Made by a program: the position numbers and the translations under genes. From a candidate division WOR-1 bacterium RIFOXYB2_FULL_46_45 (GTDB lineage: Bacteria > Margulisbacteria > WOR-1 > XYC2-FULL-46-14), in assembly GCA_001771585.1 (NCBI GenBank), contig MEUE01000003.1:62001-126000 (forward strand): a stretch of 64,000 nucleotides of DNA, given 5' to 3'. Positions 55,053 through 58,153 of the stretch are shown piece by piece. A model generated the notes under the pieces. It worked only from the letters and a program-made list of their open reading frames with translations. It searched no databases and was not told the DNA's origin. Position 1 is the first letter of the stretch. Every line of letters starts with the position of its first letter.

Positions 55053-56084
55053 TCACATAATTTCGCGAAGAAACTTGGCAGCCTGTTCGGGTGACATCGG
55101 ATTAATATAAAGTCCCGATCCCCACTCAAACCCCGCCTGGCTGGTTAACCGCGGTATAATTTCAATGTGCCAGTGGAAATCAAGCTTCAAGGTTCCCCAA
55201 TAGGCCGGCTTCCCCGGACGAGGAACCGGGTTGGGAGTGGTATGCAAAACATAATTGTACGGTGGATCGGAAAGGGTGTTCTTTAGCCGCAACATGACAT
55301 CTTTCAAACAGACCGCCAGCTGCATTCGCTCTTCCTCTGCCGCCTCCTGAAATTGGGCGTGATGCTGGCGCGGAAAAATCCAGGTTTCAAAAGGAAAGCG
55401 TGAAGCGAACGGAGTGAAGGCGACAAAAAATTCATTCTCATAAACCAGCCGATCCCCCACCCCCAGCTCCTGCCGGATCAGGTCGCAAAAAAGACAGCGC
55501 TCTTTCTCTTGGAAATATTTTCTTGAATTCTGCAGTTCCATCTTGACGTAACGCGGAGTGATCGGGGTGGCAATCAACTGCGAATGGGGATGATTAAGCG
55601 ACGCCCCTCCCGCTTTACCGTAATTTTTAAAAACCAGAACGTATCTGAAGCGCGGATCCGATTCGATCGCGGTGATCCGTTCTTTGTACGCCCACAGCAC
55701 CTTTTCAATCTGAGAAACTTCCATGTCTCCCATTGTGGCAAAATGGTCGGGCGTTTCAACCATAACCTCATGCGCGCCAACACCAGACATCATATCGTAG
55801 ATCCCGATTCCGGTCCGGTTTACCTCCCCCTCTGAAATCAAAGCCGGGAACTTGTTTGGAATAACCCGCACATCCCAACCGGCGGTGTTCGGGGCGGAAT
55901 TGGCCGGCCGCCAGGCCAAAACTTCCGGAGGGGTCATCCCCTCGTGTCCCGCGCAAAGCGGACATTTTGATGTATCTTTGTCTTTCTCTTCTTTGTGGCC
56001 GCCAAAATCGGTCGGGCGTTTGCTGCGCTCGGTCGACAAGACCACCCAGCGTTCGGATACCGGACACTTTCTTAATTCTGGCAT
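55053..56084 (-). CDS. galT: Galactose-1-phosphate uridylyltransferase
   Basis: Leloir-pathway enzyme exchanging UMP between UDP-glucose and galactose 1-phosphate; some relatives act on ADP-sugars. It has a zinc-binding CPLCAGH near residue 40, the nucleophile motif GGASLNHPHSQLIATP, and a second CLFCDLI. I start at 56084 (MPELRKCPVSERW) because AAGGAGG lies just upstream; the longer frame to 56159 runs through a genomic repeat (FDGLRTR). Length 343 aa is standard. The adjacent GH57-like gene suggests storage-polysaccharide metabolism. Confidence 0.92.
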   Translation of the reverse strand: MPELRKCPVSERWVVLSTERSKRPTDFGGHKEEKDKDTSKCPLCAGHEGMTPPEVLAWRPANSAPNTAGWDVRVIPNKFPALISEGEVNRTGIGIYDMMSGVGAHEVMVETPDHFATMGDMEVSQIEKVLWAYKERITAIESDPRFRYVLVFKNYGKAGGASLNHPHSQLIATPITPRYVKMELQNSRKYFQEKERCLFCDLIRQELGVGDRLVYENEFFVAFTPFASRFPFETWIFPRQHHAQFQEAAEEERMQLAVCLKDVMLRLKNTLSDPPYNYVLHTTPNPVPRPGKPAYWGTLKLDFHWHIEIIPRLTSQAGFEWGSGLYINPMSPEQAAKFLREIM

Positions 56085-56097
56085 CGTTTTCCTCCTT

Positions 56098-56118
56098 GTC
56101 CTGAGCCCGTCGAAGGAC
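56098..56118. repeat. Imperfect palindrome GTCCTGAGCCCGTCGAAGGAC
   Basis: A 21-base element just before galT, of a sequence type that recurs as interspersed repeats in many bacterial genomes and reads as SFDGLRTR or VLSPSKD when translated. Only one copy is in this window. Confidence 0.5.
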
Positions 56119-56122
56119 TCCT

Positions 56123-57868
56123 TTAAACCTCGATCCTCGCAGTAATCTGCGTTGACCAACTCTGGTTTGCGCCAAGCTTGACGTACCAGATCGGAATCAA
56201 CTTTGTCCCTTCATGTTCCCTCCGATAGCCCTCTTCGTCTTTCACCAGTTTTTCAATGGGAAAATGGTTTAGCATCCCTTCCCGTTCAAACGACAATGAT
56301 ATACCAAAGCCCTTCCGATCGTCAACCAATTCAACTTCCGAAACCTTATACAAGATCCCCGAACTGTCGCTTTTGATCTTGCGCCCCGAAATATTATAAA
56401 AGAGTCCCCCATTAAGTGTAAAGACAAATTCGGGTCCAAACCACAAGATTTTCTCTTTTTCTTCCAGATTTGTTATCTCGTATTGAATATGGAAAATGCT
56501 CTGTCCGGAAAAAAGCCATACTTTCTTCGAAAGCTTCAGTCCCGCGGAGGTCCGCGAAAGTGTCACTCCCACTTCTTCTTTTTTGCGATGGAGCATAAAA
56601 GAATATGCCCCCCCGATAAAATCACCGCACTCGGAAAAAGAATAGCTCTTCAGATCATGCCCTGTTAAAGAAGGAGAAAAAAAGTGATCCTTCAAGGAAG
56701 GATGCTGGCAGAGATTGGCCTGCTTGGGCTTAAAATCAATTTCAAAAACCGAACCGCCGTTAACGGGTGAAAAATAAAGGTTGAGCTGGTCGTTCCCCAT
56801 TAAAACCTCTTCGTGGCCATCCTTATCAAAGTCGGTTACCAAAAGTTCGGTGTAGCCCCCCGCTCCGTGGTTCAACCGGCTAAGCGCCGTTTCGGCGACA
56901 ATTAACTGCCCGTAAATTTCGGACCGCTCGTCAACCGATGAAAGGTCATGTAAGGCCTGTCCGCGAAAAAGGGACTCCCGCGCCTCTTCGATTAACGGAT
57001 GCGACGACTTTGATAACGCTTCCATACGGGAACTGACATGGAGCATTTTTTTGTGGAGATTGTGAAGCTTATATTCATTCAATCCCGCCGTCGGCGGAAG
57101 ATAAATTTTACCTCTTGGGACATTCTCCTCAAAGTGTTCGGAAAAGGTTGAAAGATTGATCCAGGACGCGTTCTCTTCAATCAGGGACAAAAGATTGTCA
57201 AGATATCCCTGATCATAGATCCAAACGTCGCTCCCCTTGTCTACCCCGAAACTTTCCCCTCTTCCCCAAAAGACAATCGAATTTGCCCCTTCGCTCAAAA
57301 CCTTTTCCAGATAGCCGGAAAGCTCCTCCGGCTTGCGGCAGGGAATATAATAATCAAGGGCGGATGAGACCGGAAAAAGATTGGTGACCTGCCCTTCTTC
57401 CTCGGTCACATAGTAGCCGTGCGGATCCTGAAAATCCCGATCGGGAACCAGAGCGTAATCGATCTCAAGCCGGGATAAAATTTTTGGAAGATGCGGATCC
57501 CAAACATGGTTTGTGAGGTATATCCCGCGGCAATCGGCTCCGAAAATATTGTTCATGTAATCGCGGTGTTTTTTTATCTGCGCGATCTTGTCGTGGTCGG
57601 GAATAAGCGGAAGGATGGCATTGGAATAGGCCCCGCAAAAGACCTCCGCCTGCCTCCTGGCGACCATTTGCCTTACCATCTGCAAAAGTTCCGGGTGGTT
57701 TTGTTTAAGCCAGGCGCAGAGCAGGCCGCTCATGTAAAAAGAAAATTTGAAGCGGGGGTGGCTTTCCATCGTCTTAAAAAACGGAAGGTACGCCCGGCGG
57801 TAATGCCTTTCCAAATCACCTTTCGGGTTGCCAAAATGGACCCCAAAGAGAAGATTTAGTCTGTTCAT
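56123..57868 (-). CDS. GH57-like protein with altered catalytic residues
   Basis: 581-aa relative of GH57 4-alpha-glucanotransferases/alpha-amylases: a seven-stranded-barrel N-terminal half and a DUF1926-like beta-sandwich C-terminal half. The family regions are recognisable but changed: HxHQP reads VHFGNPKG, GQxEIV reads RQAEVFCG, the nucleophile region LTERVW reads LTNHVW (Asn120), and DDGEKFG reads GRGESFG (Arg203 near the acid/base). It is probably not a hydrolase and may bind glucans or have changed chemistry. TATAAT lies 12 bases before the ATG. Confidence 0.8.
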   Translation of the reverse strand: MNRLNLLFGVHFGNPKGDLERHYRRAYLPFFKTMESHPRFKFSFYMSGLLCAWLKQNHPELLQMVRQMVARRQAEVFCGAYSNAILPLIPDHDKIAQIKKHRDYMNNIFGADCRGIYLTNHVWDPHLPKILSRLEIDYALVPDRDFQDPHGYYVTEEEGQVTNLFPVSSALDYYIPCRKPEELSGYLEKVLSEGANSIVFWGRGESFGVDKGSDVWIYDQGYLDNLLSLIEENASWINLSTFSEHFEENVPRGKIYLPPTAGLNEYKLHNLHKKMLHVSSRMEALSKSSHPLIEEARESLFRGQALHDLSSVDERSEIYGQLIVAETALSRLNHGAGGYTELLVTDFDKDGHEEVLMGNDQLNLYFSPVNGGSVFEIDFKPKQANLCQHPSLKDHFFSPSLTGHDLKSYSFSECGDFIGGAYSFMLHRKKEEVGVTLSRTSAGLKLSKKVWLFSGQSIFHIQYEITNLEEKEKILWFGPEFVFTLNGGLFYNISGRKIKSDSSGILYKVSEVELVDDRKGFGISLSFEREGMLNHFPIEKLVKDEEGYRREHEGTKLIPIWYVKLGANQSWSTQITARIEV

Positions 57869-57886
57869 AACTGTGCAGCTATTATA

Positions 57887-58145
57887 CTACTCAATTCTGA
57901 AAGCGGCAAATGCTCCTAACGGTTCCTCAAAAGATTCAATTTTTGAAACTTGGAATTCTTTCTTCAACGCTTCTACAAAAAGATCGATATTGGTTTTTTT
58001 ACCCTGCGCGACCAGCTCTACCCGATCACCGGCAATATTTTTGACCCAACCGGCCAAGCCGAATTTACGGGCAAAATCCTGCGCGGTAAAACGGAAACCG
58101 ACCCCGGTTACGGAACCGTGAAAGGTGAAATGGAATTGTTTTGCG

Positions 58146-58153
<8 letters not shown>
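57887..58153 (-). CDS. Acylphosphatase
   Basis: 88-aa enzyme that hydrolyses acyl phosphates such as acetyl phosphate. The active-site loop GSVTGVGFRFTAQDFA carries the catalytic arginine, and GWVKNIAGDRVELVAQG with the catalytic asparagine follows. It overlaps the atpC end by 8 bases at the tail of the ATP synthase operon. The pta product acetyl phosphate would be a natural substrate. Confidence 0.92.

Follow-up and report, generated by a model that had tools for sequence, protein, structure and literature searches.

A GH57 4-α-glucanotransferase-like protein without its catalytic dyad beside galT in a genome of the Saganbacteria/WOR-1 class

In a genome of the class of Candidatus Saganbacteria/WOR-1 (1.70 Mb, 4 contigs), a gene next to galT encodes a protein of 581 amino acids that resembles GH57 4-α-glucanotransferases but does not have their catalytic residues. 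The gene is located in the window, i.e. the whole stretch of 64,000 nucleotides that was analysed (C3:62001-126000). With a probability of about 0.5, we regard the protein as a non-catalytic, folded partner or scaffold which descends from an enzyme of a glycogen locus and most likely serves the adjacent GalT.

Identity, predicted fold and active-site region of the window protein

The reading frame starts with ATG and its product has two Pfam matches above the cut-off, PF03065 Glyco_hydro_57 (E 1.8e-31), which places it within the GH57 sequence family (110 bits versus a cut-off of 21.2), and PF09095 AmyA-gluTrfs_C (E 3.6e-29). The nearest solved relative, found by phmmer against the PDB, is TLGT of Thermococcus litoralis (PDB 1k1w, E 7.5e-54). 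Judged from its sequence, the window protein is a GH57 protein of the 4-α-glucanotransferase type.

The original prediction, made from the letters of the window, had named a nucleophile Glu changed to Asn, a DD changed to GR and an altered motif 1, and the alignment with TLGT, a structurally known member of GH57, shows that all of these changes are real. In motif 1, GIHNHQP is replaced by GVHFGNP, with H11 retained, H13 changed to G13 and Q14 to N14. In motif 3, LTERVW is replaced by LTNHVW; the nucleophile E123 is N120, R124 is His and W120 is Y117. In motif 4, HDDGEKFGVWP became WGRGESFGVDK, by which D213 is G202, the acid/base D214 is R203 and W221 is D210. Also F187 (TLGT numbering) is replaced, by Cys, and a loop with the conserved motif YWHG, which in TLGT presumably carries a substrate-binding Trp, is deleted from the middle domain. 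The catalytic residues of TLGT were determined by experiment to be Glu123 and Asp214 (PMC5347038). In a homologue from Pyrococcus, the Trp equivalent to W221 is described to sit between subsites +1 and +2, its exchange to Ala abolished activity, and Tyr181 and Phe185, which correspond to Y183 and F187 of TLGT, give subsites +2 and +3 their shape (PMC9582752). Of the features of an active GH57 4-α-glucanotransferase, the window protein lacks the motif-3 Glu (Asn120), the acid/base Asp of motif 4 (Arg203) and the acceptor-site Trp (Asp210), and we infer that the glucanotransferase activity was lost and that the present function is non-catalytic.

The fold was predicted by AlphaFold2, for which 36 sequences from the window and from named public loci served as input. 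The model of the window protein (mean pLDDT 91.3, pTM 0.90) matched TLGT (1k1x_A) with a Z of 36.7 and an rmsd of 2.8 over 539 residues (Foldseek TMq 0.83), and it predicts with confidence that the TLGT fold is retained despite the eroded pocket. Like TLGT (PDB 1K1W/1K1X/1K1Y), the protein has barrel, helices and C-terminal sandwich in the same order over its whole length but, unlike in TLGT, the catalytic Glu123 and Asp214 and the pocket residues H13, W120, F187 and W221 are replaced. The features are compiled in Table 1.

Table 1 Features of the GH57-galT locus in the window.
Feature	Position	Strand	Basis or remark
GH57 4-α-glucanotransferase-like protein without catalytic dyad, 581 aa	56123..57868	-	ORF, Pfam, phmmer, alignment
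N-terminal (beta/alpha) barrel, residues 1-260, pocket eroded	57089..57868	-	PF03065 to residue 258, AF2 model
Motif 1, H13 to G13, Q14 to N14	57827..57832	-	alignment
Motif 3, W120 to Y117, E123 to N120	57509..57520	-	alignment
Motif 4, D213 to G202, D214 to R203	57260..57265	-	alignment
Acceptor-site W221 to D210	57239..57241	-	residue tally; Trp role as described in PMC9582752
Helical middle domain, residues 263-334, shortened	56867..57082	-	YWHG loop deleted beside residue 305 (about 56953)
C-terminal beta-sandwich, residues 339-581, galactose-mutarotase-like fold	56126..56854	-	PF09095, AF2 model, structure comparison
Best kept stretch, about residues 341-386 (DFDKDGHEEV...GGSVFEIDFKPKQANL)	56711..56848	-	12/12 cluster-invariant positions
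galT2, GalT family, HPH motif intact	55053..56084	-	partner of the GH57 gene, conserved
Promoter-like TTGCCG-17-TATAAT	57881..57909	-	10/12 consensus positions; unproven
Acylphosphatase-like gene, directly upstream	57887..58153	-	gene order same in relative G001

The protein could still be an enzyme, with changed chemistry, either by another Glu/Asp pair such as E75 and E205 or by a C-terminal mutarotase that replaces a missing GalM; we consider this very unlikely. E75 and E205 (E79 and E216 in TLGT) are indeed retained, and their equivalents are present in 28/28 proteins tallied, but since these include 17/17 intact enzymes encoded in clusters, the two Glu are not new catalytic substitutes and nothing new was gained. 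As for the C-terminal domain, residues 339-581 share the fold of GalM from Bacillus subtilis (3mwx_A, Z 22.7; PDB 3MWX/4BZE), and no match to the GalM family was found in 29 of 31 genomes of the class, the window genome included. Unlike GalM, to which its identity is 9%, the domain appears to have no conserved His: mutarotases use a catalytic His, and none is present among the 7 invariant columns of the C-terminal family (31 C-terminal sequences). Moreover, the C-terminal domain of TLGT belongs, as we assume, to the same galactose-mutarotase-like superfamily, and because TLGT has this domain as well, the GalM-like fold is no sign of a new function. Genes of the GalT family were found in every one of the 31 genomes but a galactokinase signature was absent from 30 of them, which makes a galactose pathway unlikely, and the idea that the C-terminal domain is the mutarotase of such a pathway was rejected on these grounds. 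Since galactokinase and GalM are missing to this extent, the GalT of the window probably serves glucan or nucleotide-sugar metabolism, not galactose metabolism.

The locus, its intact paralogue and relatives in two genomic contexts

The adjacency of galT, part of the original prediction, was borne out: galT begins 38 nt downstream of the GH57-like gene on the same strand. A promoter of its own had also been claimed for the GH57-like gene; a promoter-like sequence is present but it is only a match to the consensus, and sites of this quality occur 8 times in 3.6 kb versus 3.9 ± 1.8 times in shuffled sequences. The match overlaps the 3' end of the acylphosphatase-like gene on the same strand and, therefore, co-transcription with that gene is equally possible. 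With an intact frame, a conserved operon order and weak promoter evidence, expression of the gene is plausible. A short palindrome-like element, CCTTCGACGGGCTCAGG, lies between the GH57 gene and galT (window 56100-56116); CCTTCGACNNGCTCAGG has 3 matches in the whole genome and the reversed control has 0.

A canonical paralogue exists in the same genome. Four GH57 genes were found, three of which are located in a glycogen cluster (G000:C3:126037-137051) outside the window, just past its right end at C3:126000. The cluster encodes a GH57 protein of amylopullulanase size, an intact TLGT-type GH57, GalT1, a DUF4912 protein, a GH57 branching enzyme, an NTP-transferase/phosphohexomutase (PMM) and a glycogen synthase of family GT5; most full glycogen clusters (L054-L062 and others) have a DUF4912 gene in this place, between galT and the gene of the GH57 branching enzyme. 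The TLGT-type paralogue (C3:132984-134903; L035:7476-9413), about 9 kb past the window, is 40% identical to the window protein over the first 396 residues. Both genes are of TLGT type and are followed by galT but, unlike the window gene, the paralogue has intact active-site residues and sits in a full cluster with two other GH57 genes. The window, thus, has in GH57-galT2 an eroded second copy of the gene pair that the cluster contains in intact form.

Plant isoamylases form heteromers of active and inactive subunits, and the window protein could likewise be a subunit with a regulatory or structural role in a complex with the intact paralogue, which is encoded in the same genome with a full glycogen cluster. 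However, a second TLGT-type GH57 was present in only 1/11 genomes with an eroded copy, that of the window, and in G001 the eroded copy was the only GH57 found (assembly 90% complete). As a general explanation, the heteromer was rejected for the former reason, and also for the window protein itself we hold it to be highly improbable.

To compare TLGT-type GH57 loci, 27 relatives found by search were assigned to two contexts. In context A, the gene shares a cluster with the large GH57 gene; of the 17 proteins counted here, 16 belong to the class, one of them from the cluster of the window genome, and G053 comes from elsewhere in the phylum. In context B, the gene is paired with galT, GT5 may or may not be present, and no further GH57 gene is adjacent (11 proteins: window, G001, G010, G015, G017, G018, G019, G020, G025, G026 and G027). 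The galT gene of G025 is divided between two contigs, by which the assignment of this locus to context B is presumptive; the locus was left out of the galT tree and of the counts of conserved columns. G030, whose gene contains stretches of undetermined bases, was excluded from the residue table and the GH57 tree. The counts of conserved columns and of distances were made without G004, G022, G030 and G053 and used 14 instead of 17 cluster copies. At the thresholds used, no TLGT-type GH57 was found in the genomes G007, G008, G012 and G029. The context A gene of G004 (L048:6019-8086; genome 100% complete) is split into two adjacent frames of 331 and 355 aa, by either a frameshift or an assembly error.

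H11, H13, E123, D214 and W221 were all present in 17/17 proteins of context A but in 0/11 of context B (Fisher P 4.7e-8, kinship ignored). The dyad E123/D214 was found in 17/17 versus 5/11, W221 in 17/17 versus 1/11 (G001 only) and Y183 in 15/17 versus 1/11 (window only); the pair Y183/W221 is Glu/Arg in G015, G019, G025 and G027. The acceptor site seems to be lost before the dyad. Independent of this tally, named genomes were scanned with an alignment and with patterns outside the motifs, and 80 of 111 loci were retained; an earlier scan of named genomes with the single window protein as query had found no relative. E123, D214 and W221 were all present at 58/58 loci outside the class and at 12/22 inside, and the 10 loci in the class without the full set are the B loci. 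By the residues tallied, the erosion is special to the Saganbacteria/WOR-1 class and to the reduced context B.

Within the stretch retrieved, 6/11 B loci (window, G001, G010, G018, G019 and G026) are followed by yebC, PHP and often hisF-ispA. At this same position in G009 lies a context A cluster, and the position may, therefore, be the ancestral site of the glycogen locus. galT is the one neighbour beside every eroded GH57 copy; a GT5 gene beside galT is absent from the window locus, G001 and G010. A second GH57 protein, of family f9 (frames of 600-845 aa), is encoded elsewhere in G015, G017, G018, G019, G020 and G027, in G015 and G020 near a second GT5.

The proteins of the window and of G001 form a pair in the GH57 tree (100/100). 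A single origin of the eroded B group was rejected in this tree (AU p 0.0098, with the long branch of G010 as a caveat), but the well-supported branches alone force only one change to context B in the GH57 tree; in the galT tree they force at least two. We read this as break-up and erosion that happened at least twice. In the galT tree, galT2 of the window and galT of G001 fall inside the clade of the order (99/98) and galT1 of the cluster outside of it. Since galT2 groups with the order and galT1 does not, the GH57-galT2 pair of the window is read as the native copy, and the trees suggest for the intact cluster either an origin elsewhere or an old duplication.

Constraint on the eroded proteins and their candidate role

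In a leave-one-out comparison, GH57 proteins of context A kept a median of 0.99 of the columns invariant in context A (n = 14, 0.91-1.00), those of context B 0.71 (n = 10, 0.51-0.91) and the window protein 0.51. For galT, the values were 0.995 in context A, 0.94 in context B (10 loci, 0.89-0.97) and 0.90 for the window; galT beside eroded copies keeps its active site. The mean distance ratio of GH57 to galT was not different between the contexts (2.47 in A versus 2.60 in B, P 0.79), galT also being more diverged in B than in A, and the ratio was dropped as a test of relaxed selection. Since it is equal in both contexts, an erosion specific to GH57 is visible only at the conserved columns. The window protein retains 47/80 cluster-invariant positions in the barrel (residues 1-260) and 10/37 in the middle domain. 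In the stretch of about residues 341-386, 12/12 columns invariant in context A are kept versus 71/141 elsewhere (P 0.0005), and over the 10 B proteins 113/120 versus 1007/1410 elsewhere; this comparison does not include the loop at cluster positions 411-463. Erosion of the pocket compared with the rest of the barrel was significant for the window protein (4/14 versus 43/68 columns kept, P 0.035) but not for the other 9, and was rejected as a general pattern; the pocket positions were a hand-picked set, and those in the middle domain stayed in the pocket count.

The main rival explanation is slow decay, i.e. an old glycogen locus is being dismantled and a functionless GH57 gene is merely not yet broken. 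It would account for the loss of 80/163 cluster-invariant columns by GH57 and agrees with the ratio test, which does not single out GH57. Also the state of GT5 points in this direction, since besides the three loci without a GT5 gene beside galT (G001, G010 and the window), the GT5 behind galT is eroded in G026 (274 aa, no KxGGL; L044) and the EPCGL motif of GT5 was not found in G017 (L040) and G020 (L037), which fits a general decay of the locus. However, the frames of all 11/11 GH57 genes in reduced loci are open, whereas simulated neutral drift of the window gene (substitutions only) to 46% identity gave a mean of 16.7 stops and 0/200 open frames, and drift to 80% identity likewise gave 0/200. 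Between the window gene and that of G001 (579 codons), identity at codon positions 1, 2 and 3 is 0.54, 0.71 and 0.42, with 25/66 four-fold sites identical and synonymous sites saturated. Because conservation is clearly higher at position 2 than at position 3 and the frame is open, the protein was under constraint during a large part of its divergence from G001, although this constraint may partly predate the loss of catalysis. The open frames and the constraint by codon position speak against a plain pseudogene and, together with the confidently predicted fold, make slow decay rather unlikely in our view.

The original prediction had proposed a glucan sensor. A glucan-binding role, perhaps by the C-terminal domain, could be expected of a gene that originates in glycogen metabolism and whose best kept part, the C-terminal sandwich, has the fold of the sugar-handling mutarotases. 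However, the residues of the pocket on which sugars stack are lost and neither a signalling domain nor a regulator is adjacent in the window. Since W120, F187, W221 and the YWHG loop were lost together with the dyad, the former active site is unlikely to bind glucan; the sensor found no support and we consider it improbable.

The non-catalytic partner or scaffold is our preferred reading, and its history could have been as follows. The ancestor of the window gene would be the enzyme gene of the lineage's own glycogen locus, once located with galT upstream of yebC. The glycogen cluster would then have been broken up and the GH57 gene would have remained with galT; the acceptor-site aromatics would have been lost first and the dyad next, with the fold kept. 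The present role would be that of a folded partner or scaffold, for which the C-terminal sandwich and the shell of the barrel matter, and its most likely client would be the adjacent GalT-family enzyme or, more widely, glucan metabolism. GalT as partner is a guess, made because it is the only neighbour beside every eroded copy and GT5 is lost or eroded. Against the preferred reading stand the 5/11 proteins of reduced loci that retain the dyad, and the window gene, which is shorter and fast-evolving.

A wider version for the whole class can be put forward only tentatively: after break-up of the cluster, the GH57 barrel of the Saganbacteria would have been converted more than once to a non-catalytic partner of GalT, with the acceptor aromatics replaced first (in some cases by Glu/Arg), the dyad later, and the C-terminal core and the linkage to galT kept. 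If true, this would be a repeated evolution of a pseudoenzyme together with its operon partner.

Relation to known proteins and implications

A GH57-like protein with lost catalytic residues, as originally predicted, belongs to a category that is already published. Martinovicova and Janecek (2018, PMC6037648) described 63 4-α-glucanotransferase-like sequences of GH57 in which one or both catalytic residues are missing. By its sequence features, the window protein resembles that group: it is a relative of TLGT, with PF09095 and with both catalytic residues missing. In the main text of PMC6037648, there is no mention of Saganbacteria, WOR-1, galT or operons, and genomic context and recurrence, as described here, are additions to the group. 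A detailed analysis of the 4-α-glucanotransferase-like proteins was announced there to appear elsewhere but was not found in the literature searched. Neither did the literature searched contain a paper that links GH57 erosion to the break-up of a cluster, to recurrence or to a galT partnership, nor one on GH57 with galactose-1-phosphate uridylyltransferase in a glycogen gene cluster, nor one on ADP-glucose phosphorylase with galactose-1-phosphate uridylyltransferase in a bacterial glycogen context; Saganbacteria were not mentioned among the matches listed from the glycogen and GH57 literature.

In sum, this kind of protein is already known; new is its repeated erosion, bound to a lineage and to a genomic context, with a fixed operon partner. 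Catalytically dead GH57 proteins are known from sequence surveys, but the main text of PMC6037648 gives no functions for them. Within one class of bacteria, there is a natural series of them beside a conserved galT (intact, acceptor site lost, dyad lost), which makes the role of catalytically dead GH57 proteins testable. Further, an annotation as GH57 or 4-α-glucanotransferase in genomes of Saganbacteria/WOR-1 does not imply activity.
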